This document shows, one piece after another, positions 1,712 through 53,969 of a stretch of DNA of 64,000 nt; the stretch's first letter is position 1; each line of letters starts with the position of its first letter. The position numbers and the translations under genes are program-made. The notes beneath the pieces are model-generated. The model made no database searches. It saw only the letters and a list, made by a program, of their open reading frames with translations, and was not told the origin of the DNA. The DNA comes from Rickettsiales endosymbiont of Stachyamoeba lipophora. GTDB lineage: Bacteria; Pseudomonadota; Alphaproteobacteria; Rickettsiales; 33-17. Location: NCBI RefSeq assembly GCF_003932735.1, contig NZ_CP033611.1, positions 1,029,501 through 1,093,500 of the forward strand. The letters are read 5' to 3'.

Positions 1712-3925
1712 ATGGTAAGTATAATTTCTAACGGCGCTGCATCAACTGCACAGGCTAACCTTAAAAAGGCCAATGCTGATTCAGCTGCTTCTATTGCTAG
1801 ACTTTCAAGTGGTGAGAAAATTGATCGTGCTGCAACCGATGTTGCTGCTCTTTCAGTTGGTACCATTATGAGAGCGTCTGTGAGTACATTAGCTTCAGCA
1901 CGTACTAACGCTGCTCAGGCATCAAGCCTGCTTGGTGTGGCTGATGGTTCTTTAAAAATGATTGGTGAAATTCTTCAACGTCAAAAAGCTCTTGCTACTC
2001 AGGCTACTTCCGGTACCTTAGGTGAAAGTGAAAGAGGATTCCTTGATCAAGAATTCCAGCAACTTAAAGAGCAAATTGACCAAATTGCTACTAAAACTAA
2101 CTTTAACGGTGTTAAGTTAATTGATGGTAGTTTGTTTAATCCAGCAAAGGTAACTACTGGTGACCGTGCTAATTCTAGTGCAACAAGTGGTACATTAACT
2201 TTTACAGCTACCGCCGGTGCTGATGATGAGACTCTAACTATTAATGGTGTGACATTTACTTTCCAGGCTGCTGTAGTTAGTGGTGCTAATACTGAGGTTA
2301 TTACGACCGCTGTAGCTGCTGATAATGCTAAAGCATTCTATACAGCAGTTCAAAATACATTAAATTCCATCGATCCAACTGACGCAGCAAGTAAAGTAAG
2401 ACTATCATCATTAGATTTTACTCTAAACGGTGCTAATGTTGTAATCACTACCAAAGCGGGTGGTGCTGCGTTTAATAATGGTGGTACTAAAGTTGTTGCG
2501 GTGGTTGGTAGTGCAGCACTTGGCGCTGGTGCAGTTTTAGTAAACAGTGCCGATGTTGATAATACAACTATATCACTAAGTACAGGTGGGACTGCTGGTG
2601 TGAATGGTGATCTTGCTGCAGGTACTTTTGCAACTGCTGGCGCAACTGCGTATGCAGGTACAGCAACTACTATAACACAGGGGACCAGGGGGGATAATAT
2701 CATTACCGCTATTGATATTGATGCTGCTGCAGTAGCCGGTATGGATAGTAATGCTACTGGCGTAAGTACAGCAGGCGTATCTAATAATAAAGATTTTGTT
2801 GGTAAGTTATCAGGATTTAAGGCAACTTATGTTCAGGATGATTATGTTAACATTAGTATTGAAGTGGGTAATTATACGTATCAAGCTAAGAACGTCAAAA
2901 CAACTCCAGGTACTGCAGGTGCTGCCACAGTTTATCGCTTTGCTTCAATCGAAAATGGTGGTGGATTCTTTGATCTTCAGTTTGAAACAGGTACTAGTTC
3001 AGGTTTAACTACTATGGTGACTGACCAGTCTGCTGCTAATGTTATTGCCTCACGTTTAGACCGAGCTTTTGAAGGCTTAGATTTCTTCCAAAAACGTGAA
3101 GTATCGTCATATGTTGCTGCTGGTACTATTTTCCCAACAGGAAGCTCAACTTCTTCTGGTAACTTAGCTGGTACTAAATTTGAACTCATTAATAATGATT
3201 TTTCAAATGTACAAATTGAGAGCATTAAAGTAAACGGCCCTGTAAGTGGCGGTACTGAAGCAACAATTGAATTTCAAATTAATGGTGAAATCTTTAGAAG
3301 TGGCTATGATGGAGAGGGTACTACTACCGCTCTTACTAACCAGATAACCAATACCACTACTGTTGGTTTTGTAAGTACCACTGATCCTCGTAAGATCTTA
3401 AGGTTTTCTAATAATTCAGGAGCTACAATTGAAATCGATAACGTATCTAAAGCTCAAGGTTTTCAAAAAGCTCTAGAGCGTGCTTTCGGTGTAGGACAAG
3501 GTGGTTCATCACTCTCATTCCAAGTGGGTCTTACTTCTGATGATGCAATTAGTGTTCAGTTGAAAAGCGCCCAAACTAAGGACATGTATATTGACCAAGA
3601 TGGTAACGCTGTAGCCAACGTTAATATTGGCGGTGCAGACGCTGTTAATGCTAATACGGCAGGTACTCTTCTTGATGGAGCAATTAGGTTTGTTACTGCA
3701 TTAAGAGCAGACGTGGGTGCTTTCCAATCAAGGTTTGATTTCTCATCTGCTACTATTGATACTAGTGCTTCAAACTTAGATACAGCTCGTGGTATCTTCT
3801 TAGATACTGACGTTGAAAGTGAATCAACTAAGTTTGCTACATCACAAGTTCGCTTACAAGCTAGTATTTCTGTACTTGCTCAAGCTAACCAAATTCCACA
3901 AAGCTTGCTCAAGCTTATTGGTTAA
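1712..3925 (+). CDS. flagellin with enlarged central domain
   Basis: Structural protein of the flagellar filament, exported by the flagellar type III apparatus. The 737-residue product has a conserved N-terminal D0/D1 helix region (ARLSSGEKIDRAATDVAALSVG near 29-50, then LSVGT and an ALATQATSGT helix). It has a matching C-terminal coiled region with VESESTKFATSQVRLQASISVLAQAN and ends IPQSLLKLIG, as flagellins do. Between them lie about 550 residues rich in Ala, Thr, Gly and Val, with a flagellin-type ETLTINGVTFTF strand near 175. This is longer than the usual 270-500 residues. AGGAG at 1701-1705 supports the ATG at 1712. No other flagellar gene is nearby. The frame is intact, so the gene looks functional. 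Confidence 0.93.
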   Translation: MVSIISNGAASTAQANLKKANADSAASIARLSSGEKIDRAATDVAALSVGTIMRASVSTLASARTNAAQASSLLGVADGSLKMIGEILQRQKALATQATSGTLGESERGFLDQEFQQLKEQIDQIATKTNFNGVKLIDGSLFNPAKVTTGDRANSSATSGTLTFTATAGADDETLTINGVTFTFQAAVVSGANTEVITTAVAADNAKAFYTAVQNTLNSIDPTDAASKVRLSSLDFTLNGANVVITTKAGGAAFNNGGTKVVAVVGSAALGAGAVLVNSADVDNTTISLSTGGTAGVNGDLAAGTFATAGATAYAGTATTITQGTRGDNIITAIDIDAAAVAGMDSNATGVSTAGVSNNKDFVGKLSGFKATYVQDDYVNISIEVGNYTYQAKNVKTTPGTAGAATVYRFASIENGGGFFDLQFETGTSSGLTTMVTDQSAANVIASRLDRAFEGLDFFQKREVSSYVAAGTIFPTGSSTSSGNLAGTKFELINNDFSNVQIESIKVNGPVSGGTEATIEFQINGEIFRSGYDGEGTTTALTNQITNTTTVGFVSTTDPRKILRFSNNSGATIEIDNVSKAQGFQKALERAFGVGQGGSSLSFQVGLTSDDAISVQLKSAQTKDMYIDQDGNAVANVNIGGADAVNANTAGTLLDGAIRFVTALRADVGAFQSRFDFSSATIDTSASNLDTARGIFLDTDVESESTKFATSQVRLQASISVLAQANQIPQSLLKLIG

Positions 3926-41618: not shown

Positions 41619-41714
41619 CTTAGTTATTAGCTAGGATGCATGTAATAAGCTGTGAATCCCTATAATTTTTTATCATTAAGTTTAACGTATTGCGGTAGGT
41701 TTTGTCTGAAGGGT

Positions 41715-42050
41715 TTTAAATCAAATTTTGAGAAATATCTGTTTCATTTTTCTTAGAACATATACGGTATGCCTCTCGGCCCAGCTATTTTTTTGATTGC
41801 TATGCCATTCCCTGGCAATTAATTCAAAAGAGTTATCAGAGTTTAATTGTTGCTGAACTTTTTCTTCCTTTTTAACTACCGAAGGATCAATATTATTTAC
41901 AGGCTGCCTTTTGGCTTGCAGGCTCTTTTCTCTTTACCACCAAAGCGATATTTCAAACGCCAATACTTGCTGCTACTCGGCATAACCTCAAGGTATAATC
42001 CCTTCTCATCGGACAGTTTACGGGCTTTATCGCTAGGTTTAGCATGTATC
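41715..42050 (-). pseudogene. remnant of a second P4-type integrase (N-terminal part)
   Basis: Reading the minus strand in shifted frames gives AKPSDKARKLSDEKGLYLEV, SSKYWRLKYRFGGKEK, then after a deletion of about 60 bases DPSVVKKEEKVQQQL and ELIAREWHSNQKNSWAERH. These align with residues ~8-125 of the intact integrase at 52532-53716, but many residues differ, so it is an older relative and not a fresh copy. The C-terminal catalytic domain is missing. It lies in the same orientation relative to the att copy at 42226 as the intact integrase does to the tRNA. This marks a tandem second element. Confidence 0.85.
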
Positions 42051-42058
42051 CGTTAGCA

Positions 42059-42098
42059 TGGGGGCATCTCCATTAATGCGGAGGAATTGTTGCCCCCA
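42059..42098. repeat. inverted repeat, putative arm sites of the remnant integrase
   Basis: TGGGGGCA at 42059-42066 is matched by TGCCCCCA at 42091-42098, a perfect 8-base inverted pair, followed by GGCCCC and ACCCCC runs up to about 42118. GC-rich runs are rare in this window. The position between the integrase remnant and the att copy suggests arm-type binding sites of that integrase. This is inference. Confidence 0.4.
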
Positions 42099-42225
42099 AT
42101 TATGGCCCCAAATACCCCCGGATGTTAATATACTATGTTGGATATTATTGGACGATGATTTAACTCAAAAGGCGCTTTTTATCAAGGGTTTCTGGATTAT
42201 ATTGGACTTTGTAAGATATGAAGCT

Positions 42226-42240
42226 GGCGGTGGGGTGGCG
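42226..42240. other. distal attachment site, degenerate tRNA-Ser 3' end
   Basis: GGCGG-TGGGGTGG matches the terminal GGCGGATGGGGTGG of the tRNA-Ser gene on this strand with one base missing. The similarity continues about 80 bases to the left (from 42147) against 53802-53879, including GGCGCTTTTT.TCAAGGGTT and GAAGCTGGCGG. That flank belongs to the older element and shows the two att regions share ancestry. Confidence 0.65.
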
Positions 42241-42300
42241 TTCATATTATAGGTGAAGTAGCTTGATTTCCCTAAGGTTGTTATTTAGGTTATTTACAAG

Positions 42301-42320
42301 GTACCCTCAAAAGTACCCAC
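42301..42320. repeat. putative integrase arm sites, distal end
   Basis: GTACCCTC at 42301-42308 and GTACCCAC at 42313-42320 are direct repeats with 12-base spacing, 60-80 bases inside the att copy. The same GTACCCAC occurs near the other end of the element at 53746-53753. Paired repeats inside both ends fit arm-type integrase sites. Confidence 0.5.
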
Positions 42321-42483
42321 AGAAGATTTTTTGTATTACAGGTTCTTGCTGATTTTTGTAAAAATTTATCTGCTAGTGTTCTTATAGTCTTATATGAAAA
42401 TTGCTATAATAAATATTTGTTTGAAATATTTTCTCTCTAAATTATAAGTTAATAATCTAAACTGATAAAGCTTATAAAAAACA

Positions 42484-43623
42484 ATGGAAGAAGCAAAAAA
42501 GATAAAAAAGTATAAGAAATTTAAATCCCTAAAATATCCATTCGGTTTTGATAAAAATGAAGAAATCTTTTATCCATGGGTTTGGGATAAAGTACAAAAG
42601 AAGAAACTTCCAAATGATAAAATTCAAACAGGCAATAAATGCAATTTAACATATAAAAATGTAAAGCTATCTTATGCTAAAAACTCTGAAACACCTCATT
42701 TTAAATCTCAAAAAGGAGAAAACATAAATCAAGAAAATCAAGCTTCGATAAATATGAGTGCTTCTCACTATTTAACCCAGTTGTTAGTTCAGAAAAAAAA
42801 GGAAGTACCAATACCAAGCACACAAAGATATTTAATTAATCAAAATATTTTGAATAACTGGTTATATGACGGGCATAAAATATTTCATAGAAAGAATAAA
42901 GCAAAAGAATACTATAATTTCAAGGAATTTATTTTAGAGCAAACTAAGTTTAATGAGCAAAAAGATTATAAACATAATCTTTTAGAGATAGATTATGGTG
43001 GAGAATATTTTGGCATCCATAGTATAGAGATCAATATTTCAGGTGCTAATTTAATTGATAATGCAGTAAATCATGATCTCATAAAAAATAAATTAACTCA
43101 TGATCAAGAGGTGACTTCATTTAGAAAAAAAGTATTCGATATAGTTGCTTATGATATTAATATAGAACCTATACTCATAATAGAAATTATTGTTAATTCT
43201 GATATTACGGAAGAGAAATATGAATTAATGAAAATGATTGATATTCCAAGTATTAAGGTTAATATTAAGGAGCTTGATCCATATGATCCCGAGACGGCTT
43301 ACCCATTAACACATGATAATAGCTCGTGGGTCCATAATCCTAAATTCGAAAATGAAATAAATTTATTATCCCAAATAGCGCAGATACAATTAGCGAAAAA
43401 TTACGAGATTTATCTCAAAGAGCAGAAGGAAAAGCTTAGTTTATTATTCATACCAGAAGTGCAAGATTATACTAATCTGGCATCCCAAATTACTGAAGTT
43501 ATTCAAATAAAAGAGCAATCATTAGAACCAACTTTTCAACCTACTGTAGATCGAGCTAAATTATCTATCTTTCAAAGACTCATATCTTTTCTGAAATATA
43601 ATTGGTTTAAAATAAGATGGTAA
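42484..43623 (+). CDS. putative CoiA-like nuclease, satellite cargo
   Basis: A 379-residue protein I cannot assign firmly. The layout recalls competence protein CoiA and related proteins: an N-terminal region with a short CxL...KLSYAKNS.TPHF segment (about 53-73) like the degenerate zinc/HFAH region, a SASHYLTQLLVQKKK segment like the family's H.xxK helix, then FDIVAYD (D219) and IIEIIVNS (E234) followed by EEKYELMKMIDIPSIKVNI, which matches the D...EIxVTH...eK...IPxIEI nuclease pattern. The catalytic Gln/Lys after the Glu is not obvious. It is the outermost gene at the distal end, convergent with the R-M genes, where satellites carry defence cargo. It is also very Lys/Asn-rich. Confidence 0.4.
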   Translation: MEEAKKIKKYKKFKSLKYPFGFDKNEEIFYPWVWDKVQKKKLPNDKIQTGNKCNLTYKNVKLSYAKNSETPHFKSQKGENINQENQASINMSASHYLTQLLVQKKKEVPIPSTQRYLINQNILNNWLYDGHKIFHRKNKAKEYYNFKEFILEQTKFNEQKDYKHNLLEIDYGGEYFGIHSIEINISGANLIDNAVNHDLIKNKLTHDQEVTSFRKKVFDIVAYDINIEPILIIEIIVNSDITEEKYELMKMIDIPSIKVNIKELDPYDPETAYPLTHDNSSWVHNPKFENEINLLSQIAQIQLAKNYEIYLKEQKEKLSLLFIPEVQDYTNLASQITEVIQIKEQSLEPTFQPTVDRAKLSIFQRLISFLKYNWFKIRW

Positions 43624-43637
43624 GATAAATTAAATTA

Positions 43638-44621
43638 TCAAAAAGCATCCTCCATTGATGTTGCGCTTCTTAATTTTTCATATGTTGTATATCTATGTCC
43701 CTGTGAAGCCTTAACCCTACCATTAGGAACCAACCTTAGTGGTTTAATTTCTTGGGGAGCTTCAGAAAAATATACAATATATTTGTCGGTATCTTTGTAA
43801 GGTTTAATAGACTGTATTTTTGCAATATGAGTTATAGCCGAAATAGGTGCAACCTGATACAGCGCAAGGTATTTGAGATTTGGTATTATAGCAGCACTAA
43901 TTCTTAAAGCCCACCAACAATGTTGCTTAATAAAAACTTCCTCTACTCCCCATGGTTTTGCCGAAGCAACAATTGTATCAATATCACTCACCGCAATATC
44001 TTGTTTAGACAATTTAAGCGATTGCTGAATTTCCTCTAAAAACGGTGTGAACTTATAAATACATTCGTTCTTAGAATTTTTAAACCTTTCAAGAGTAATA
44101 ACCTCTATAGGAAAATTAAATTTATTTTTTAAAACGGCCGCAAGCTTATCATGAATTTGATCAATTATTACAAGTATGCAAAACTCCTGCCCAAAAATAA
44201 GATGCTCAAGCATTCTATCAATATTAGGAAAGTTGGAATTTCTAAGATAATTTTGACAAATTTCATTTATCTCTTTATCGCTCTCAATAGTTTCTCTAAG
44301 AATTTTCTTAACTAAAAGCCCATCATCTTCATATGATAAATTAATTCTCAACAATTGAGAGGCAATGTGCCTTATAGAATCATGTGACGCCAGTTCAACT
44401 TCAACAACATACAGCCTTGGTTTATTAGGGCTACTAAAGTCTAACAAATACCCATCAGGAATACTTTGATGTTGATTTTTCTTACCCAAACGCTTTTTAA
44501 TATTAAGATAAATGTGGTCCTTACCAAAAAGTTTATTGCGAACTTCCCATACAGCTTCCTCAAGCTCTGTTTCTAAAGAAAAAGGAAATTCATAGTATTC
44601 ATGTTTATTATTCCAGAGCAT
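43638..44621 (-). CDS. PD-(D/E)XK-like partner of the type IIG enzyme
   Basis: A 327-residue protein of unknown function. An N-terminal nuclease-like core has PDG (D56) and, after a beta strand, VVEVELASHDSIRHIASQLLR; the E74-x-E76 pattern stands where E-x-K is usual. A separate C-terminal domain (about 215-327) has YLALYQVAPISAITHIA, IKPLRLVP and QGHRYTTYEKLRSA. I have seen such a tail in other nuclease-type proteins but cannot name it. Its ATG overlaps the stop of the R-M gene (TAATG), so the two are co-translated and probably act together, as restriction subunit, specificity helper or modified-DNA sensor. Confidence 0.5.
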   Translation of the reverse strand: MLWNNKHEYYEFPFSLETELEEAVWEVRNKLFGKDHIYLNIKKRLGKKNQHQSIPDGYLLDFSSPNKPRLYVVEVELASHDSIRHIASQLLRINLSYEDDGLLVKKILRETIESDKEINEICQNYLRNSNFPNIDRMLEHLIFGQEFCILVIIDQIHDKLAAVLKNKFNFPIEVITLERFKNSKNECIYKFTPFLEEIQQSLKLSKQDIAVSDIDTIVASAKPWGVEEVFIKQHCWWALRISAAIIPNLKYLALYQVAPISAITHIAKIQSIKPYKDTDKYIVYFSEAPQEIKPLRLVPNGRVKASQGHRYTTYEKLRSATSMEDAF

Positions 44622-47600
44622 TATTTCCTCACACTATCTTCAACAATCCTAATTTCCTCATCTGTAAGACCGTAGAGTTTGTAGACTATGGCATTTATTT
44701 CTTTGTCGGTTGCTTCAATCTGCCTTTGAATTTTGGTTTTGTCATTGGGGTTATTGGTGGATAGAAGCTTCTTATTCAGCTCAAGCATATTTTCTGCAAG
44801 TGAGGATAGTTTATCATGAATGGCTTTGTCTGGTTTTTTGGATAGGTCGAGTTTTGGGATTGGGAAAGCCTCTAAATATCTGTTTTGAAATCTAAAATAT
44901 CCACCACGTAATGTATGTGCAGTTTGCGCAATGAAAAACTTCAATATACTAGAATTAAGTAAACCCAAGTAAAATAATTTTGATCCCATACTATCCGTTA
45001 TAGAAATAGTATATACTGTAGTAGTATGGTACATTGTACCATCAGCATCGAATGTTAAATTTGGTGAATTTGCAATTTCAGGAGTCATGATTTTAGGTGT
45101 AGCAAACTCTACTAAATTTTTAGGATAAATATACGCATAAAAATTCTCATGCTTCATCCTACTATTTTCACGTTTCTCCAGCTCGTCTTTATTTTCTAGT
45201 AGATATTGCCATCCGAGGGGATAATTAGCTTTCAAGTAATCTTGCGACATTAAATTTGCTTTGCCATTTTCAAGAAGGTATGGAAATATCACAACATTTT
45301 TAGGTGATGGTTTACTGTATCTTTTAACATCCTTACCCATCAAAAATGGTTTTATTAAATCATTTTCAATTTCTATTTCTTTATCTAAGGATTTTGAATA
45401 ACACGTTGAGGTATGTTTAGATTGCTTTATTAACTCTAAAACATAAATTTTATCAGCGCTTGTTTGTAACCCAACAAATATCTTTCTAGTAACATCTTTA
45501 AGCCTTAGTGGTAATTTAGAGATTGTATCTAATACTTTTTGCTTATCATTGGATAAAAAATGCCAATTATTATCAACTTCAGGCTGGTTTAGTGAAATAA
45601 AATTTTTATTTAAGGTTTTATCATTTTTAATATTTAGGGCAATATCTGATTCTAGTATTGCATAGTCAAACTTTTTATTAAATGCTTTTTTAAGGATAGT
45701 AATAGCGGTATAGGTAGTTGCTCCATCAAATATTTGAGCACTACCGAAACTAACAATTTTGTGCAAAGCTTTATTACTCGCTAAGTAGTTTCTTAGCTTT
45801 TGCCCCATTTCAGATTGGAAAAATTTATGAGGCTGGATAAAGCCTAAGTAGCCTTTAGATTTAAGCAAGCTGAACCCTTTTTCATTAAATAAAATGTATA
45901 TATCAAAGTTTTTATCAGCAGACATATATTCGGATTTAAAGTAAGCTACTGAACTGCCAAACATTTCCTGTAAAGTTTGAATACGTGCATACGGCGGATT
46001 TCCCACTACTGCATCAAAACCGCCATCTTTGAATACCAGAGGAAACTCGCTTTGCCAGTCAAACGGGTTTACGCGTGTCTTTTCTTCTTCTGATTGATTT
46101 GGATATTTACTATAAAAATCTGTTCCTACTAAAGAATTACCGCATTTTATATTATCCCCTAAATCAGGTAATGCTCTTTCTTTAAATAACTTAAGCTGCT
46201 CGCCTACAGTTTCCTGGGTTTCATTCTCTAAAACCTTAATAAGCAGTGATAGCTTACTTACCTCAACAGCCTGTGAATCAATATCCACTCCGTAAATATT
46301 ATTGGTAAGGATTTTTTTGCGTTCGGAAATAGTTAACTTATAATTACTGTCCCCAATTTTATAGAACTTATCCTTATACTTTTTAGGGTGGTTTACATAA
46401 TAATCTAAATGCCAGTTAAGTAAAAATTGGTAAGCTCCTAGTAAGAATGAGCCTGAACCACAGGCAGGGTCAAGCACTCTTATCATGCTTACTTGTTCTG
46501 GCGTTTTATCTTTAAGTAATTCACCTATAGTATTTTTAATAATATAATCGACAATATAGCTTGGAGTGTAATATACCCCTCCGGCTTTTTTCACTTCAGG
46601 CTTTTGTTCAATTTTTACACTTTTACCAGTAGAAGATACAGTAATTACCTGTCCTAAAAATCTTTCATAAATATTACCCAAAATTTCAGGAGGTAGAGCT
46701 GAAAATTCATAGGGACACGGATAATACATTGAAGCGATAATTTCCTTTAATGGTTTATCATCAATTTTAAGATTAGGAGTTATAGAATCTTGATAATTAG
46801 CTCTGCCTTTTTCTAATTTAAAATGAAATAGGCCGGAATTATATTTATCATCTGCTTCTCTAAAAACATTACGAACTAGCTTTTGATATATATCTTTATT
46901 TTTGGAAGTATTAAGTAATCTATTCTCATCTTCAATTTTTCTATCTTCACAAATTCTTAGGAATATAAGACGATCAATGATCATCTGAACTGCGTAGTTT
47001 AAATCTTTTTCGGCTATTGAGTGATTATTAGAAATAATGTTTTTAGCAAGCAACTCACGCCATTTTTCAATATCTTTTAAAAACTCTTCATCTACCGGAA
47101 TAACACCTTTTTTAGGGCGCTTTTCTACAAAATGATCAAAGGAACCTTTAAGAATGGCATCCTTTGAAAATACTCCTGCTATCTCATCCCATTTATCAAT
47201 ATACTCATCAAAGGTATAATGCATGATAATAGAATTGCTGGGCTTATCATCATGCAAAGGTTTTATACGCGTATCGTAAACTGCAAATTCTTTAAAGTTG
47301 GTAATAATGCTAATAGGTAGTTTAGCGTTCCAGCCATATTTTCTAATTTGCAGAACTGATTTTTCATCTTTTGCTATGTTGATTGTAGGCTTTTTTGCTT
47401 CTACAAAAAACTTTCGAACTCCGCCTATCCTAAAAGTATAATCAGGCCTTTTTAAAGATTCCTCAGATGACTTAATAATATCTTCAGTGACAACTTCTCT
47501 ATAACTTGGAGAGTACCCTTCTTTGTTTCTTATATCCCAATTAAGAGCTTCAAAAAGTGAATCAATATAGTCAGTTCTAGTTTGGGCTTCGTTATAGCTG

Positions 47601-47671
47601 TTAATTTTGCCTAGATGCATTAAATGATCAAACTTTTCTACTAGATGCTTTATCGAATTGGGCACTGTCAT
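44621..47671 (-). CDS. type IIG restriction-modification enzyme
   Basis: A 1016-residue fused nuclease-methyltransferase. The N-terminal domain has a PD-(D/E)XK core, RPDYTF (D77) and FVEAKKP (E91, K93). A helical connector (about 200-365) leads to an N6-adenine methyltransferase with YYTPSYIVDYI, motif I VLDPACGSGSF (401-409) and motif IV GNPPY (557-561). A C-terminal target-recognition region (about 730-960) ends with LRGGYFRFQNRYLEAFPIP. Such enzymes methylate their site and cut unmodified phage DNA. All catalytic residues are intact. It ends in TAATG overlap with the partner gene. Defence cargo of the satellite. Confidence 0.82.
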   Translation of the reverse strand: MTVPNSIKHLVEKFDHLMHLGKINSYNEAQTRTDYIDSLFEALNWDIRNKEGYSPSYREVVTEDIIKSSEESLKRPDYTFRIGGVRKFFVEAKKPTINIAKDEKSVLQIRKYGWNAKLPISIITNFKEFAVYDTRIKPLHDDKPSNSIIMHYTFDEYIDKWDEIAGVFSKDAILKGSFDHFVEKRPKKGVIPVDEEFLKDIEKWRELLAKNIISNNHSIAEKDLNYAVQMIIDRLIFLRICEDRKIEDENRLLNTSKNKDIYQKLVRNVFREADDKYNSGLFHFKLEKGRANYQDSITPNLKIDDKPLKEIIASMYYPCPYEFSALPPEILGNIYERFLGQVITVSSTGKSVKIEQKPEVKKAGGVYYTPSYIVDYIIKNTIGELLKDKTPEQVSMIRVLDPACGSGSFLLGAYQFLLNWHLDYYVNHPKKYKDKFYKIGDSNYKLTISERKKILTNNIYGVDIDSQAVEVSKLSLLIKVLENETQETVGEQLKLFKERALPDLGDNIKCGNSLVGTDFYSKYPNQSEEEKTRVNPFDWQSEFPLVFKDGGFDAVVGNPPYARIQTLQEMFGSSVAYFKSEYMSADKNFDIYILFNEKGFSLLKSKGYLGFIQPHKFFQSEMGQKLRNYLASNKALHKIVSFGSAQIFDGATTYTAITILKKAFNKKFDYAILESDIALNIKNDKTLNKNFISLNQPEVDNNWHFLSNDKQKVLDTISKLPLRLKDVTRKIFVGLQTSADKIYVLELIKQSKHTSTCYSKSLDKEIEIENDLIKPFLMGKDVKRYSKPSPKNVVIFPYLLENGKANLMSQDYLKANYPLGWQYLLENKDELEKRENSRMKHENFYAYIYPKNLVEFATPKIMTPEIANSPNLTFDADGTMYHTTTVYTISITDSMGSKLFYLGLLNSSILKFFIAQTAHTLRGGYFRFQNRYLEAFPIPKLDLSKKPDKAIHDKLSSLAENMLELNKKLLSTNNPNDKTKIQRQIEATDKEINAIVYKLYGLTDEEIRIVEDSVRK

Positions 47672-47766
47672 TGTTAACTCATTAATACAAATATATTAAT
47701 ATGTTAACCTATAAAGATATATTTCTCAATTTCTAATTTATTAAGGATGTTGGGCGGTTGCTTATA

Positions 47767-48177
47767 TTATTCTTTATCTTGAATCAATATCCTTCTAGCC
47801 ATTTCTTTTAAAGCTTCATTATTAATTTTCAGCAATGGTTTTGTATTAGTATGTTCAACAGCTAAAACTTTATCTGTCTGACCAAGATAAACTTTACCGA
47901 GATGAATTAACATTTTTATGTTACCATCCATTGCTACTTCCATTTGTTTCATTCTGATTAAGAAGTTTCTAAGAGCATAACCTTGGTCAAAGCTTGCTTT
48001 AGTATCAATATCTTTTAGTAACGTTCCATAAAATGCATCATTTGATAAACCTAAGTAATGACGAATACCTTCTTTAGAGCAATTCATGGCAGCTAAACAT
48101 ATTATCTTATCTTTATCATCTTTCCTTAGTATGGTTTTACTGCGTGGTCTACCCTTTGGATTATTCGATTTCCTCAC
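47767..48177 (-). CDS. small HTH protein resembling phage terminase small subunit
   Basis: A 136-residue basic protein. It starts with KSNNPKGRPRSK, typical of small terminase and phage HTH proteins. A helix-turn-helix follows (IICLAAMNCSKEGIRHYLGLSNDAFYGTLL), then a helical part with MDGNIKMLIHLGKVYLGQTDK. The start is GTG, with CGGAG upstream. In satellites of the PICI type a TerS homologue redirects a helper phage's packaging; that role here is inference. A general phage-type DNA-binding regulator is the alternative. Confidence 0.45.
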   Translation of the reverse strand: MRKSNNPKGRPRSKTILRKDDKDKIICLAAMNCSKEGIRHYLGLSNDAFYGTLLKDIDTKASFDQGYALRNFLIRMKQMEVAMDGNIKMLIHLGKVYLGQTDKVLAVEHTNTKPLLKINNEALKEMARRILIQDKE

Positions 48178-48199
48178 TTTTTACTCCGTTAACTAAAAT

Positions 48200-48613
48200 T
48201 TAATTATTACCAATACCCCACCTTTTAAATGTTTGAATAGTTTGTACATATTGTTCTTCTGGTGGGTTAGAGCTACCTTTTAATAATAGTTCATTTTCAA
48301 GGTAAAGGCTTGTTATTTCATTAAAGGCAGCTTTCTTTGCTTCATTGATATCTACTCCACCATCATAATACATTATACTTACTCGTTCTTCATATAATTC
48401 TTGGTAATACTCTTTTGAAGTATGTGAATTATTTAGTATCAACAAGCTTTTAATGCTTAGTATTTGCTGGGTGGCGCAGGTGGCGTTATTTTGGTAATTA
48501 TTATAATTGTTTATAATAGCTAATTTGTAATCATTTAGGAAACCTGTGGGTTTTACCTGAGTTAAATTAGTATTTTCTGTAATATTACATAATTTGTTTG
48601 AAAACTGTGCCAC
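48200..48613 (-). CDS. hypothetical satellite protein
   Basis: A 137-residue protein with no family I recognise. It is mostly helical, Asn-rich in the first third (NNYNNYQNN), and ends with EEQYVQTIQTFKRWGIGNN. The GTG start overlaps a GGTGG ribosome-binding region. It lies 10 bases after the helicase gene and 22 before the TerS-like gene, so it is part of the replication operon. Confidence 0.6.
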   Translation of the reverse strand: MAQFSNKLCNITENTNLTQVKPTGFLNDYKLAIINNYNNYQNNATCATQQILSIKSLLILNNSHTSKEYYQELYEERVSIMYYDGGVDINEAKKAAFNEITSLYLENELLLKGSSNPPEEQYVQTIQTFKRWGIGNN

Positions 48614-48623
48614 CGTGCCACCT

Positions 48624-50210
48624 TTAATATGTGTTGTTTAATTTAATGCCTTGAAGTAAACGTTTGCCTTGTTCTCCTTTGACTGGCATAACATTAAACT
48701 TCTTTAGTCTGATAGTAAGTTTTTGATGTGAGTAAGGCATTTTATGTCCATTATCTTCTGCCCAACTTTGGTATCGCTGATATAGTTCTTTAGACGATAC
48801 TTTGCCTTCACCTAAGGTGCAACATTGCTCAAGAAATTGTAATATTTGATCTGTAGCATGCTTCCATTCTCGAATTAATTCATCTGAAGAAGGAGGAATA
48901 GAGAAATGACCACGGCTTAATAATCCTTCTAAAGCGTTTAGTATTAGATTAAAGATGCCAGCCTTTTCTTGTTCCAATTTTTTTGGAAGAACGGTATCAA
49001 TTTCCTCCCTTTTAAATTTTCGGTTAAAAGGAAGTATAATTGCTCTGCGGTCAATTGCATCACTATGGTCCCTGGAGTGAGGTAGATGGTTAGTAGAAAA
49101 TACTGGAGTTGCATAAGGTTCAAATTCGAAAGGTTCTTGATATTTACGCTGAGCTATCATTCTTTCTCCTGAAGTTATAGTTTTAATAGCTTCATCTGGA
49201 AGTTGCTCTCCTTCTGCTATTTCGGTAACAATGTTAGCTAGCTTGCCGTGTAATTCTGCAGTTAGAAACTTATCTGCAAGTTGAGAAAGTTTTACAGAGG
49301 ATATATTATCAGCACCTAACAAGCTCTTTATTATGTTTAGTAATACTGATTTGCCATTGCCTCCTTCACCAACTAAGATAAAGAATTTTTCAAATCTACA
49401 GTCTTTAAGAAGCATGTATCCCATCATCTCTAGTATTAATATCTTTTTGATTTCTTTATCTGGATCGTAAGCAAAAATTTCTTCTAAAAATTGCTCACAT
49501 CTAGGTGCAGTAGCATTGGGATCATAATCAACATTTAAACAAGTCGTATTATACAAAGATTTATCATGAGACTTTTCGGTAAACTTCCCTTCTTCCCATA
49601 CTAAGCGAAGGTTTTTTGCAATGATTGATTCAATATCCTGATCAAGTTTAATATTAGGATCATATAATTCTGTTTTAATTAAATCTAAAATTGACTCAGA
49701 TTTTTGCTTAGATATATAGTTAGAGCTTCTTAACGTATGGGAGATAATCTTTTTAACTTCTCTTTCGCTAATTTTTTCCCATTTACACTTTTTATATTTA
49801 TATGGTTTGTCATTGATATATTTAATATCCTTTCTTGATAAAGAATTGATCACCTTATTGGCGATAGCTAATTGGTTCTCAATTAAATAATATATCTTCC
49901 AATCTATGCCCTTATTTTGGCAGTATTCCTCAAGTTCTTCCAATAATTCACTTACAGGTAATTTATGTTCATTTGCTAATAAACTGAGCATTTCGAGTTG
50001 TTGTTTCTTAGTAAGTTTATAACAAAGGATCGTTTGTTCGGCTTCTATCAAAAATTCTTTGTTTTGCTTGATAGGTTTTGTAGAAAGATCTATGCTATAA
50101 GTGATGCTAGGTAAGTTATTTCTTATCCATTCAGCTGTGATGCCTCCTTCAAAGGCATCACATAAATCATAACCACTAGGTGTATTATTAAAGTTAGCTG
50201 GTAATATCAT
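48624..50210 (-). CDS. P4-family primase/helicase (helicase part)
   Basis: Superfamily 3-type replication helicase as found in P4 alpha and phage D5-like proteins. A helical N-terminal domain (about 60-270, the D5 region) precedes Walker A in LVGEGGNGKSVLL (281-288), a sensor region with FEPYATPVFSTNHLPHSRD and DRRAIILPF, and a C-terminal winged helix (ELYQRYQSWAEDNGH). 528 residues. The priming part is not in this protein; it is in the two genes upstream. The start lies 17 bases inside the Toprim gene, so translation is coupled. Drives replication of the excised element, by inference. Confidence 0.88.
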   Translation of the reverse strand: MILPANFNNTPSGYDLCDAFEGGITAEWIRNNLPSITYSIDLSTKPIKQNKEFLIEAEQTILCYKLTKKQQLEMLSLLANEHKLPVSELLEELEEYCQNKGIDWKIYYLIENQLAIANKVINSLSRKDIKYINDKPYKYKKCKWEKISEREVKKIISHTLRSSNYISKQKSESILDLIKTELYDPNIKLDQDIESIIAKNLRLVWEEGKFTEKSHDKSLYNTTCLNVDYDPNATAPRCEQFLEEIFAYDPDKEIKKILILEMMGYMLLKDCRFEKFFILVGEGGNGKSVLLNIIKSLLGADNISSVKLSQLADKFLTAELHGKLANIVTEIAEGEQLPDEAIKTITSGERMIAQRKYQEPFEFEPYATPVFSTNHLPHSRDHSDAIDRRAIILPFNRKFKREEIDTVLPKKLEQEKAGIFNLILNALEGLLSRGHFSIPPSSDELIREWKHATDQILQFLEQCCTLGEGKVSSKELYQRYQSWAEDNGHKMPYSHQKLTIRLKKFNVMPVKGEQGKRLLQGIKLNNTY

Positions 50211-50766
50211 TTTTTAGCTCCCACAGTTTTTCAGTTTGTATAATATTAATTTCTTTCACTCTGATATTTTTTAGAATTTCAATAACCTTATTGTAGTACT
50301 TAATGCCAGCTTCATCGCAATCATAGCTTATGTATACAATACGGTTGTGTAGTATACTCCAATCAGATTTATCAGCTGCATTGCTTCCTCCAGATGAGGT
50401 GGTTGCTACCCATTCTGGAAAAGCTTTTTTTGCTGCTTCTGCGGTTTTTTCTCCTTCAACTATTAAAATAGATTTTTCTGGATAATGAATAATATCAGGA
50501 AGGTTATATAGAGGCCTTATAAAATCTGGCCATTTGTTAACCCATGTGTATGTGCCAGTTAAAAATTCTACATAGCAGTAAGGAAATATTTTTTTATCAT
50601 TTTGACCAGGTTTTGGTCCCTTAATATTTCTGCGTAACACATAGAAGCTTAATTTGTTAATATCAACATAATAAGGATATATGCTACTAGGCTCAATCTT
50701 CTTTAGAATATCACTAAAGCAATTAGCATCTTCAGGAACTATGTTAAGCACTCGTTTGATATTCAT
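50194..50766 (-). CDS. Toprim-domain primase protein
   Basis: A 190-residue protein with a Toprim domain: ILIVEGEKTAEAAKKAFP supplies the conserved Glu, and YISYDCDEAG the DxD pair. It follows a ~90-residue N-terminal region. It is the catalytic-looking half of what is usually one P4-like primase with the zinc-domain protein upstream; the two overlap by ATGA. It overlaps the helicase start by 17 bases. Confidence 0.78.
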   Translation of the reverse strand: MNIKRVLNIVPEDANCFSDILKKIEPSSIYPYYVDINKLSFYVLRRNIKGPKPGQNDKKIFPYCYVEFLTGTYTWVNKWPDFIRPLYNLPDIIHYPEKSILIVEGEKTAEAAKKAFPEWVATTSSGGSNAADKSDWSILHNRIVYISYDCDEAGIKYYNKVIEILKNIRVKEINIIQTEKLWELKNDITS

Positions 50767-51077
50767 ATCCTTTCTCCTATAATATCTAACAATTCAAGCA
50801 GAGCTTCTTTTTGGGATTTGCGGCTTAGGTATGCATAGAAGGAAATTATATCATTTCCCCCGATGCCTTCAGCAAATTCACACCATTTACCTGTTCTTAA
50901 GTTAAATTTGAAAGAACCTAAATGTTTATCAGCTCTATTAGGATTAGTAGCTACATATTCATTACCAATCACTTTCCCACCAGGAAGTATCCTGGGTAAA
51001 ATGCTGCTATGATTTCTCTCTAGAATGGCTCTGCCTTTTTGAAAGATATCTTTTTTGTAAGAATATTTCTTTCTCAT
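50763..51077 (-). CDS. primase N-terminal zinc-domain-like protein
   Basis: A 104-residue protein matching the N-terminal part of satellite and phage primases: RILPGGKVIGNEYVATNPNRADK, then GSFKFNLRTGKWCEFAEG and GGNDIISFYAYLS. Only one cysteine is left, so zinc binding is doubtful. The stop overlaps the Toprim gene as ATGA and the start overlaps alpA as TAATG. The two primase halves seem to be separate genes rather than a frameshift, because both junctions have clean coupling. Confidence 0.65.
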   Translation of the reverse strand: MRKKYSYKKDIFQKGRAILERNHSSILPRILPGGKVIGNEYVATNPNRADKHLGSFKFNLRTGKWCEFAEGIGGNDIISFYAYLSRKSQKEALLELLDIIGERI

Positions 51078-51295
51078 TACATTTCTCCTTGTTCTTGGTT
51101 AAATTTATTAATCAAGGCTGTAATGTCTTCTGCACGCCATGCAGTAATACGAGGGCCAAGTTTAACAGGCTGCGGAAAGCGACCTGCCTTGACGCCTGCC
51201 CACCAAGTGGATTTGCCCACAGGGATAACCTGTAAGATAATTGGAAGCCGGATGTATCCGATTTCTGGTATGTAACATCTATTTTTACAAGTCAT
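51077..51295 (-). CDS. alpA: AlpA-family transcriptional regulator
   Basis: A 72-residue MerR-like winged-helix protein of the AlpA type: EIGYIRLPIIL, then VGKSTWWAGVKAGRFPQPVKLGPRITAWRAEDITALI, with the typical GRFP and W(R)xxDI. In P4 and PICI elements AlpA proteins activate integrase/excision or replication genes. First gene of the replication operon; TAATG overlap with the primase gene. Confidence 0.85.
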   Translation of the reverse strand: MTCKNRCYIPEIGYIRLPIILQVIPVGKSTWWAGVKAGRFPQPVKLGPRITAWRAEDITALINKFNQEQGEM

Positions 51296-51382
51296 AATTA
51301 AACCTTATTTTTAAATTAAATATATTCAGAAAATAAATATTTTAAGGTTTATAATATATAACAGAAAAGCTTGCCGCCGTTC

Positions 51383-51481
51383 TAGGAATAAAGGAGGAAG
51401 TAAGGAAAAAAGGAATGCTTAGGGATAGGCTAGGGAAGGATTAAGGGCAAATTGAGGATATAACAAGGAAGAAATAGGGAT
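51383..51481. repeat. helically phased AGG repeats, candidate ori or operator
   Basis: A purine-rich tract upstream of alpA with AGG/GGG steps. Those at 51412, 51422, 51433, 51445, 51456, 51467 and 51477 are spaced 10, 11, 12, 11, 11 and 10 bases, close to one helical turn. No coding frame runs through it. A replication origin with iterons or a regulator-binding array for AlpA are the obvious possibilities. This is inference. Confidence 0.4.
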
Positions 51482-51512
51482 AAATTATAAGCTTAGATGA
51501 TTGGACAATATG

Positions 51513-52502
51513 TTACTTTCTCTCCTTTTTTAATTCTGAGACTTTATTCATATAGCTTTTATATTCTCTTGGTACATCATCACCTTGAGAATTAACAATT
51601 ATAATACATTTACCATGTTTAATATCTTTGATATCTTCATATGCTAGGCTATTGTTTGTCTTTTTATCTTGAATAAATTTGCATAATTGCTTTGCATTTG
51701 GAGTTTGTCGATTCTCAATATAGTAATCATTGAATGGTAATAAAATTATAGATTTTAAACTATCATCTCTTGATAAAGTTTGGTTGTTATTTGGTTTATT
51801 TGAATTACTATATCCATAGTTTTGAATTATATCATTTAATTCATTATTTTTACTTTGTAATACAGTTATTTTTTGTTCAGATTCATATTGATAATTTTTA
51901 TATCTTTCTTCCCAATCAATAAAATTACTATGCTTTTTTAATAATTCCTCAAGCTCATTAGGAACCTCTAAATCATTATTTTTAGCCCATAATATAAAAT
52001 CTGCTGGTTTTATTGGGTTTGTTAGCGCCCCTGTGCCTAGTGCTCTATATGCAAGTAAGTAAAGTTGAGCATAATGAGCAGAAAATTTATTTGGATTTAC
52101 ATATTGTATTGTTCTCTCCATGGTGTGAACATGCGGGTCGCACGAGAAGAAGCTTCCTATGCTATACTGTAAAGCGATAGGATCTAATCCAAATATTAGA
52201 GCGATGGCTTCATCTGTTCTCCAAGTGGGTAGCTTAGCATAAAATTCAAAATTAACTTTTTTTGTAGAAGGTGGGAAATCATATTGCTTTTCTATCTTGC
52301 TGTATTCTTCATAAAACTCTTGTTCAGAAAGTGATCTTAATTTTATTTCATATTCTTTTGCGTTATCCAGATATAATTGATCATTGGTAGAGAATTCATG
52401 ATTAAGTCGGCATGATTCTCTATAAATCTTTTGCCTAAATGGAAAAGCATACTGTATTAAATACTGCATTTTATCTTCTCTATCTTTGCATACAATAGTC
52501 AT
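51513..52502 (-). CDS. hypothetical satellite protein with coiled coil
   Basis: A 329-residue protein without a family I can name. It has a WRTDEAIALIFGLDP segment (about 95-109) that recurs in proteins encoded next to integrases of such elements, a PADFILWAKNND stretch and a predicted coiled coil at about 205-235. A GAGAAG ribosome-binding site favours the ATG at 52469 (318 residues) over 52502. It lies between the integrase and the phased repeats, so a role in excision or replication control is possible. Confidence 0.65.
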   Translation of the reverse strand: MTIVCKDREDKMQYLIQYAFPFRQKIYRESCRLNHEFSTNDQLYLDNAKEYEIKLRSLSEQEFYEEYSKIEKQYDFPPSTKKVNFEFYAKLPTWRTDEAIALIFGLDPIALQYSIGSFFSCDPHVHTMERTIQYVNPNKFSAHYAQLYLLAYRALGTGALTNPIKPADFILWAKNNDLEVPNELEELLKKHSNFIDWEERYKNYQYESEQKITVLQSKNNELNDIIQNYGYSNSNKPNNNQTLSRDDSLKSIILLPFNDYYIENRQTPNAKQLCKFIQDKKTNNSLAYEDIKDIKHGKCIIIVNSQGDDVPREYKSYMNKVSELKKERK

Positions 52503-52531
52503 ATTATTACCATAAGTTGGGTTGTTTTTTG

Positions 52532-53716
52532 TTATCTATTTATTTCTATCAATGCGTATAAATAATCCGCCCACCATTGCATCATTTCTCGGCGCTCTGG
52601 TAAATACTGGGCATGGTTATAGCTTGCTCGTACTTTATTACGTTCGGCATGAGCAAGTTGTCTTTCTATAATATCCGGTCTAAATCCGTGCTCATTGAGA
52701 ATAGTGGAGGCTGTAGCTCTGAAACCATGGGGAGTTGCTCTACTATGATAACCCATCCGATACATAGCATATAGTAGCGTATTCTCGCTTATAAAGCTTA
52801 ATGGTTTATTGCGATTAGTAAATAAATGCTCTCTATAACCACTTATTAGCTTTAATTCTTGTATGATATCTATTGCTTGATTTGATAAAGGTACAATGTG
52901 AGGTTCACGCATCTTCATTCGTTCTGCGGGTATACGCCATTCTTTCTTTTCTAAATCGATTTCTTCCCACCTAGCACCTCTTAATTCCCCTGTGCGTACA
53001 AATGTAAGTATCAATAACTTTAAAGCTAATTTTGTTTGTAAATCCCCATCATATAATGCAAGCTTTTCTAAAAATTCTGGTAGTTCCTTTGCTTCCAACC
53101 TTGAATAATGTTCTTTTTTACGAGTTTGGAGAGCTCCTCGTAGATCAGATGAAATATCACGTTCTGCTCTGCCCGTTGCAACAGCATATCTAAAAATTTG
53201 TCCGCAAGTTTGTAGCGCTCGCTTGGCAATATCAATAGCTCCTCTTTTTTCTATATCTCGTAATACTAAAAGTAATTCGGGTGGTGTAACAGTATTGATT
53301 GATTTGAAGCCAAGTTTAGGAAATATATCAGCTTCTAATCTTCTTAGAACATAATTGGCATGCCTTTCTGCCCAGCTATTTTTCTGATTGTTATGCCACT
53401 CTCTAGCTATTAGTTCTAAAGAATTCTCAGTGTCTAACTGTTGCTGAATTTTTTCTTCTTTTTTCACAACAGAAGGGTCTAAATTAGCTCTAATAAGTTT
53501 ACGCGTTTTATCACATTTATCTCTAGCTTCTTTGAGCGAGGTTTCTGGATAAACTCCAAAAGAAATTTCTTTTTCTTTGCCACCAAATCTATATCTAAAA
53601 CGCCAATATTTACTACCAGTAGGCTTTACTAGTAGGCAAAGTCCTTTTCCATCTGCTAATCTATATTGCTTCTCTAAAGGTTTAGCATGTTTAATGGTAA
53701 TATCATTAAGTGACAT
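52532..53716 (-). CDS. int: P4-type tyrosine recombinase (integrase)
   Basis: Site-specific recombinase for integration at the adjacent tRNA-Ser. An N-terminal arm-binding domain (AKPLEKQYRLADGKGLCL, YWRFRYRFGGKEKEISFG) is followed by a core-binding domain and the catalytic domain with R in RTGELRGARW, HGFR, HAERN and the nucleophile Tyr in RASYNHAQY. All catalytic residues are present. From the ATG at 53716 (MSLNDITIKHAKP) it has 394 residues; the frame runs on to a GTG at 53761 that overlaps the arm repeats. Transcribed away from the tRNA. Confidence 0.93.
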   Translation of the reverse strand: MSLNDITIKHAKPLEKQYRLADGKGLCLLVKPTGSKYWRFRYRFGGKEKEISFGVYPETSLKEARDKCDKTRKLIRANLDPSVVKKEEKIQQQLDTENSLELIAREWHNNQKNSWAERHANYVLRRLEADIFPKLGFKSINTVTPPELLLVLRDIEKRGAIDIAKRALQTCGQIFRYAVATGRAERDISSDLRGALQTRKKEHYSRLEAKELPEFLEKLALYDGDLQTKLALKLLILTFVRTGELRGARWEEIDLEKKEWRIPAERMKMREPHIVPLSNQAIDIIQELKLISGYREHLFTNRNKPLSFISENTLLYAMYRMGYHSRATPHGFRATASTILNEHGFRPDIIERQLAHAERNKVRASYNHAQYLPERREMMQWWADYLYALIEINR

Positions 53717-53745
53717 GTGGGTATCTATTATATATTTCTCAATTG

Positions 53746-53765
53746 GTACCCACATAGTCACCCAT
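53746..53765. repeat. putative integrase arm sites, tRNA-proximal end
   Basis: GTACCCAC at 53746-53753, a related GTCACCCAT at 53758-53766 and an inverted copy (GTGGGTAT) near 53717-53724 lie just upstream of the integrase start. The same GTACCC(A/T)C unit is repeated inside the distal end at 42301-42320. Confidence 0.5.
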
Positions 53766-53876
53766 AAAATCTCTGGTTTTAGTGGGATGATATTAAATCA
53801 TATTGGACAATGATTTAGCCTAATAGGCGCTTTTTGTCAAGGGTTCCTGGATTTTATAGGGCTGTATAAGATAAGA

Positions 53877-53894
53877 AGCTGGCGGATGGGGTGG
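53877..53894. other. tRNA-proximal attachment site
   Basis: The 3' end of the tRNA-Ser gene (GCTGGCGGATGGGGTGG on this strand) matches the distal site at 42222-42240 with one base missing. The tRNA stays complete, as is usual for P4-type integration. Confidence 0.65.
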
Positions 53895-53969
53895 GATTCG
53901 AACCCACGGTACGGTCACCCGCACGCCGGTTTTCAAGACCGGTGCCTTCAACCACTCGGCCACCCATCC
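53880..53969 (-). tRNA. tRNA-Ser (UGA)
   Basis: A 90-base class II tRNA: acceptor GGATGGG/CCCATCC, anticodon arm CCGGT/ACCGG with loop CTTGAAA (anticodon TGA), a long variable arm (GTGCGGGTGACCGTACC region), T arm GTGGG/CCCAC, discriminator G and encoded CCA. The variable arm and G73 confirm serine. Its 3' end is the attachment site of the satellite. Confidence 0.97.

Follow-up and report, generated by a model that had tools for sequence, protein, structure and literature searches.

The 64-kb window analysed here (the whole stretch G000:C1:1029501-1093500) comes from the genome of the Rickettsiales endosymbiont of Stachyamoeba lipophora (G000, a single contig of 1.74 Mb). Inside its tRNA-Ser(TGA) gene lies an element of about 11.6 kb (42,244-53,880), which we interpret, with a probability of roughly three in four, as a phage satellite of the phage-inducible chromosomal island (PICI) type. 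The comparisons that argue for a satellite are the PICI gene order, the homology of one product to small terminase subunits (TerS), the recurrence and apparent exchange of this TerS gene with its leader among related elements, and the different tRNA genes at which those elements sit. Other genomes of the order are numbered in the same way (G001, G002, G008 etc.), and the PICI layout and the definition of P4 follow PMC6092414 and PMC8628076, respectively.

The initial annotation had described an integrase, AlpA, a split primase, a P4-type helicase and a TerS-like protein in one coupled minus-strand array, and this was confirmed: the genes are spaced by -17 to +29 bp, with the exception of 217 bp between a 329-aa open reading frame (ORF) and AlpA. 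The P4-type tyrosine integrase (409 aa, 52532..53761, minus strand; PF00589, PF22022, PF13356) matches NF007246 at E 2.8e-89, which is under that family's NCBIfam cut-off, and is 72-74% identical to the integrase of an element at tRNA-Ser(GGA) in G002. It is followed on the same strand by the 329-aa ORF (51513..52502), which has no family in Pfam, PADLOC, NCBIfam or PHROGs, and by an AlpA-type excisionase or regulator of 72 aa (51077..51295; PF05930, 27.1 bits for a cut-off of 21). Of the split primase, two parts stood, both on the minus strand: a Toprim part of 190 aa (50194..50766; PF01751 at 28.3 bits, over the cut-off, and phrog_239 at E 1.1e-9) and the C-terminal part of a P4-family primase/helicase of 528 aa with D5_N and DUF5906 domains (48624..50210; TIGR01613 at E 3.8e-69, PF19263, PF08706). 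The proposed primase N-terminus did not: the 104-aa ORF at this position (50763..51077, minus strand) has a weak match to NF005477 (E 0.038), no family over the cut-off in Pfam or NCBIfam and no zinc motif seen by inspection, and is 86-88% identical to its G001 homologue. The sole solved structure matching the helicase profile is 7ola/7om0, a 'DNA primase' (E 5.2e-19), which we take to be SaPI5 PriRep1.

The array continues, still on the minus strand, with a 137-aa ORF (48200..48613), a 14-bp sequence called here the TerS box, TTTAGTTAACGGAG (48184..48197), and the 136-aa TerS homologue with a GTG start (47767..48177). The 137-aa ORF is conserved directly before TerS, with homologues in G001 (64% identical) and in the L034 element of G000 described below (39% over 57 aa of a 91-aa ORF). 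It has no family in Pfam, PHROGs, PADLOC or NCBIfam and no phage match, and a scan of viral contigs gave 173 stretches with it, none of which was confirmed. All genes present in the element are intact ORFs.

Pfam and PHROGs were run on all 11 ORFs of the element, NCBIfam on 10 (the Toprim ORF was omitted) and PADLOC without the helicase. Families of capsid, portal, large terminase, lytic, relaxase or type IV secretion system (T4SS) genes had no match among the 11 ORFs scanned, in agreement with the initial annotation, which had reported no capsid, portal or conjugation genes and had named structural or conjugation genes in the same element as grounds for giving up a satellite. A prophage remnant was therefore rejected for want of a structural gene, and a conjugative or mobilizable element for want of a relaxase or T4SS match. 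The element thus combines an integrase and a tRNA site, AlpA, a primase/replicase and, by homology, TerS, with no structural or lytic genes, as PICIs do; it has no capsid genes of its own by Pfam, PHROGs or NCBIfam, which sets it apart from capsid-forming PICIs. The pairing of alpA with a P4-family primase/helicase that marks P4-like elements is also present, the primase being split over ORFs here. However, psu, sid and delta had no match (Pfam and PHROGs, 11 ORFs; NCBIfam, 10 ORFs), so that a P4 satellite proper was rejected, and of the earlier label 'P4/PICI-like' the PICI half holds, with TerS present, and the P4 half does not.

The identity of TerS, likewise upheld from the initial annotation, is supported by homology and by the position of its relatives next to the large terminase (TerL) in prophages of the order, in one phage and in IMG/VR contigs. 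The homologues in the prophages of G110:C44 and G196:C2 overlap the start of the large terminase, and in G110 a portal gene then follows. In the Psychrobacter phage pOW20-A the homologue PSYG_00040 overlaps the start of TerL in the same way, the next gene being annotated as terminase large subunit. These three homologues match phrog_309 or phrog_606, both terminase small subunit (pOW20-A to phrog_606 at E 2e-13). A tblastn search of 50,697 phage records with the window TerS returned 6 records at E <= 1, the best at 1e-6; three of the regions were opened, and two of them have a same-strand TerL at some distance beyond the match, about 1.4 kb in Pelagibacter phage HTVC112P and about 3.3 kb in Bradyrhizobium phage BDU-MI-1. 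The search of IMG/VR gave 416 confirmed candidates. Of the best 80 of these 416 loci, 53 have the start of TerL no more than 300 bp downstream and 68 have TerL downstream on the same strand (15 of them beyond 300 bp), a count made without a random-locus control and with a TerL profile refined on these 80 loci themselves (from 50 matches in round one to 70 in the final round).

Other searches for TerS gave less. A two-row TerS profile matched in 7 of the 262 genomes of the order, a class-level search in 3 of 385 genomes, G000 among them, and a scan of viral contigs with the two-row alignment gave 46 pattern stretches, none confirmed. A relative in G081 had no TerL match within its 3.2-kb stretch. 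The AlphaFold model of the window TerS is all helices (pLDDT 87.7, pTM 0.61), and three 'terminase small subunit' entries of BFVD appear at E 0.01 to 0.03 among the 50 matches listed. The PDB match 8vd6 (E 1.9e-15) was discarded as evidence, being a repeated helix-turn-helix (HTH) that is uninformative on TerS.

With the two-row profile, TerS loci were found four times in G000, once in G001 and twice in G002, on backbones that differ in their replication genes and sit at different tRNA genes. Besides the window element, with its P4-type helicase backbone at tRNA-Ser(TGA), G000 has a 12.5-kb element between perfect 49-bp tRNA-Met repeats (L035:4912-17453) with an integrase, Toprim, an AAA_25 protein and TerS; it also encodes a 1258-aa ankyrin-NUDIX protein. 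A 36.5-kb element (G000:C1:1573206-1609719, covered by L034:7178-20000, L158 and L033:1-8719, and called the L034 element) is flanked by perfect tRNA-Ala repeats of 48 bp (at 1573206 and 1609672), and carries TerS, Toprim with DUF3987 and, beside the far repeat, an integrase. A non-ribosomal peptide synthetase (NRPS) cluster is also found in this element (ORFs of 4493 and 2125 aa, a CmlA-type hydroxylase, a phosphopantetheinyl transferase and an ABC transporter). The perfect repeats of these two elements support the satellite reading. The fourth TerS, in L033, lies about 5 kb past the far tRNA-Ala repeat, and no integrase belonging to it was identified. It is presumably a tandem remnant, since the G001 element, whose TerS is 81% identical to it, is also at tRNA-Ala. 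That G001 element has the window-type block, while the two of G002 are a window-type helicase and integrase beside tRNA-Ser(GGA) (C16) and a Toprim-DUF3987 element beside tRNA-Met (C20).

TerS and its leader behave as an exchangeable cassette. The only blastn matches (E <= 1e-5) between the window element and L033, L034 or L035 cover TerS and the 27-53 bp upstream. The TerS genes of L033 and G001 are 81% identical (86% as DNA), and apart from the tRNA-Ala end no other common DNA was seen in the parts compared; between the window and G001, in turn, the helicases are 67% identical and the TerS 45%. The two TerS fragments of G002 are 96.25% identical over 240 bp, and nothing else matches between those contig ends. 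The TerS box is identical just upstream of all seven copies. Across the 262 genomes it occurs in four: G000, G001 and G002 have it at their TerS sites (4, 1 and 2, respectively), and G259 has a single copy within an apparent coding stretch that is presumably purL. The reversed pattern, as a control, occurred 18 times in 16 genomes, at most twice per genome and never in G000 or G002. A 14-mer of such make-up arises by chance, therefore the weight rests on its place at every TerS. The box may be a site of packaging or of regulator binding, or just the leader to which the ribosome binds.

The helicase is spread a little more widely, with matches to its profile in 11 of the 262 genomes. At the helicase loci of seven of the eight genomes beyond G000-G002 (G022 and six others; G087 excluded) no TerS was found with a phage-type TerS profile, which is blind to fragments, having failed on the cut TerS copies of G002 as well. 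Scans with the helicase gave 5 distant matches in genome contigs, where its own and near genomes were possibly excluded, and 17 distant loci in viral contigs. In another family of the order, L182:2529-6999 (G065:C116) has an integrase 51% identical to that of the window and a P4-type helicase near tRNA-Glu; with no TerS match there, it is a possible further satellite.

The element had been placed between two copies of a tRNA-Ser 3' end. On the integrase side this stands, as ARAGORN finds the complete host tRNA-Ser(TGA) at 53880..53969 on the minus strand, its 3' end being the attachment site. The left copy is not intact: it is a degraded tRNA 3' end at approximately 42220..42244 (minus strand), which the alignment suggests as the distal attachment site, with no exact run above 11 bp and, in its tRNA part, two mismatches and a gap. 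It sits within a homologous stretch of about 560 bp (41684-42244 versus 53269-53900). This stretch includes, at 41684..42230 on the minus strand and aligned to 53269-53886, the decayed 5' part of an integrase and the upstream DNA of an earlier related element; the frame is interrupted by stops and frameshifts, and two pieces of this remnant are 71% identical to the G002 element. Because the homology includes this broken integrase, the left boundary is best read as a tandem-insertion scar. An earlier element would have occupied the same tRNA, the present one would have inserted later at the tRNA end, and the scar between them would then have decayed. The initial annotation had overlooked both this remnant and the type IIG gene at 44621-47671.

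The orthologous tRNA-Ser(TGA) genes of G001, G002 and G008, identified with their anticodons checked, have no window-related element within the 18-19 kb read. The same block, proposed earlier as something to look for at tRNA-Ser of related genomes, was thus not found at tRNA-Ser(TGA) in these three; at the tRNA-Ser(GGA) of G002 there are a window-type helicase and integrase. Since the related elements sit at different tRNA genes and tRNA-Ser(TGA) is free of them in the three relatives read, an ancestral fixed locus was rejected, and the block does not recur at one unrelated, non-attachment position in all relatives. Overall, the satellite interpretation passed the tests that were run.

If the element behaves as PICIs do (PMC6092414, from which the steps are taken, gene identities and comparative patterns being our own basis), its integrase would insert it at tRNA-Ser and, with AlpA as excisionase or activator, excise it. 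Toprim and the P4-type helicase would replicate the excised circle. TerS would bind the element's own DNA, probably near the TerS box, and steer the large terminase and capsid of a helper phage to package it, and the type IIG restriction-modification cargo could guard the host against other phages.

Several observations weigh against a satellite. By itself, the window TerS has no direct match to a TerS family in Pfam, PHROGs or NCBIfam, its sole PHROGs match being phrog_12540, of unknown function (E 0.029), and Foldseek of its model found nothing in the PDB at E < 0.001 (best E 0.19). The VIA fold comparison is only suggestive, because an unrelated archaeal protein (Z 5.2) scores near the top entry, Sf6 TerS (5.6), with the phage protein 2ao9 at 5.0. 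Ten of the best 80 of 416 IMG/VR loci show no TerL (2 are too short downstream to judge). Nor was a TerL matched in the 13-20 kb read for three weaker relatives (one in G196:C3, two in G193; E 2.5e-6 to 5.4e-5), because of which the family may serve other roles too. For the G001 element neither an integrase nor a second attachment copy was found, and 36.5 kb, the length of the tRNA-Ala element in G000, is large for a satellite. The degraded left attachment copy makes the completeness of the window element uncertain, and its capacity for excision may be lost for the same reason. Together with the second, decayed integrase beside it, this could point to a relic that is no longer mobile, which we consider unlikely as the genes of the element are intact and every pair computed has a dN lower than its dS (in several comparisons dS is high and in part close to saturation). 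Quite unlikely, too, is an integrative defence or mobilizable island in which the TerS-family HTH protein acts as a regulator, and whose spread would rely on conjugation in trans, homologous recombination or natural uptake. The type IIG cargo, the NRPS cluster of the 36.5-kb relative, the three weaker relatives without TerL and the failure to find a helper with the terminase families searched would all fit such an island, and P4-type primases and AlpA occur in non-satellite elements too. However, no relaxase or T4SS gene was matched among the 11 ORFs of the element, the DNA in common with the three other G000 loci is TerS and its leader, not cargo, and most TerS relatives on phage contigs precede TerL.

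The remaining point against a satellite concerns the helper. In G000, G001 and G002, searches for TerL with phrog_2, phrog_9, PF03237 and PF04466 gave no match, and the prophage that the initial annotation suggested seeking in the same genome did not turn up with these families; a GTA-like gene set (gene transfer agent, GTA) was found instead. A negative search of this kind does not prove absence, since divergent terminases can escape: phrog_2 did detect the G110 and G196 prophages, phrog_9 was negative in all six genomes searched, none of them a positive control, and positive in 4 of 14 control genomes, and all four families missed the GTA-like TerL, first seen as a weak local match (E 3e-4) and later confirmed. 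One TerL of this other type is present in each of G000 (phrog_38), G001 and G002; the type occurs in 201 of the 262 genomes and adjoins the portal in G193 and G196. G000 also has, outside the element, a GTA-like head cluster of portal, prohead protease, HK97 capsid and a GTA-gp10-type protein (L157:6536-11646, about 691.5-696.6 kb). The resident virion genes found are thus GTA-like, and the probable helper is a phage that is not integrated in the genome, the GTA itself being less likely. It is very improbable that the element TerS redirects the bacterium's own GTA-like packaging machine to the element. The single TerL and the head genes would provide such a machine, and 4 of the best 80 IMG/VR relatives adjoin a TerL that matches the GTA-like one at E < 1e-30. 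However, the TerS box is absent near the GTA-like cluster, the TerL neighbours of TerS relatives are mostly closer to another type, and the searches covered only some TerL families; GTA heads also often hold less than 11.6 kb, and one related element has 36.5 kb. Equally improbable, though prompted by the finding of only GTA-like large terminase and capsid genes in these genomes, is a broader picture in which the box and TerS form one exchangeable packaging cassette, shared within a single Rickettsiales-like family by a guild of elements with unlike backbones, including one that moves a whole NRPS cluster, and in which this guild may parasitize the GTA and not a phage. Apart from the head cluster, a lone large terminase lies at L187:17928-19328, and the preceding 148-aa ORF, which overlaps its start, might be its TerS.

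The remainder of the element is presumably cargo. The type IIG restriction enzyme-methyltransferase (1016 aa, 44621..47671, minus strand) matches REase_MTase_IIG of PADLOC at E 2.5e-259 and Eco57I, TaqI_C and HSDR_N in Pfam. A 327-aa ORF (43638..44621, minus strand) overlaps it by 1 bp and has no family over the cut-off, its C-terminal part being 41-43% identical to two plasmid proteins annotated GIY-YIG. On the plus strand a 379-aa cargo ORF (42484..43623) has no family above the cut-off and no plasmid match. Elsewhere in the window, at 1712-3925, a 737-aa flagellin-like protein was recognised by eye.

Mobile DNA known in Rickettsiales is mainly Rickettsiales amplified genetic elements (RAGE), transposons, plasmids and WO-type prophages, and P4 itself is not known to carry TerS. 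Gram-negative PICIs such as EcCICFT073 (PMC6092414) resemble the window element in integrase, AlpA, primase/replicase, sometimes terS, accessory genes, the lack of structural genes and a size of about 15 kb or less. Unlike them, the window element has another host order, a primase/helicase over three ORFs, a type IIG cargo and a TerS that the Pfam and PHROGs TerS models do not recognise by itself. With P4-like satellites (PMC8628076) it has in common a P4-type integrase, AlpA, a P4-family helicase and defence cargo, but it carries TerS and has no psu, sid or delta match. With the Staphylococcus aureus pathogenicity islands (SaPIs) the TerS-directed packaging logic and the helicase profile match to 7ola/7om0 are common, whereas no Stl-type repressor or capsid-size genes were identified here. 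The RAGE elements are mobile DNA of the same order (PMC10732058), but the window element has no conjugation genes. According to the same source, GTA genes occur widely among alphaproteobacteria, Rickettsiales included, and every Orientia genome examined has them; the GTA-like set of G000 agrees with this and is located apart from the window element. For Wolbachia, it has been proposed that the particles include a GTA (PMC10299305). The WO-like Islands of Wolbachia are relic prophage pieces suggested to interact with or parasitize intact phage, and are described as carrying structural modules or associated genes (PMC9203015), unlike the window element. For Wolbachia plasmids a satellite-like behaviour has been raised as a possibility (PMC9560607). 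In the literature searched, which did not cover subscription papers, such hints were all that was found, and no TerS satellite from Rickettsiales.

The results therefore provide sequence evidence for TerS-carrying satellites circulating in a Rickettsiales-like lineage. Four TerS loci in a 1.74-Mb genome would imply repeated contact with unseen helper phages, or use of the GTA machinery. The recurrence of a packaging gene on differently built elements suggests that this lineage comes under attack by phages which are in turn exploited, and the 14-bp box together with the exchanged TerS could be used as a handle for finding the helper.

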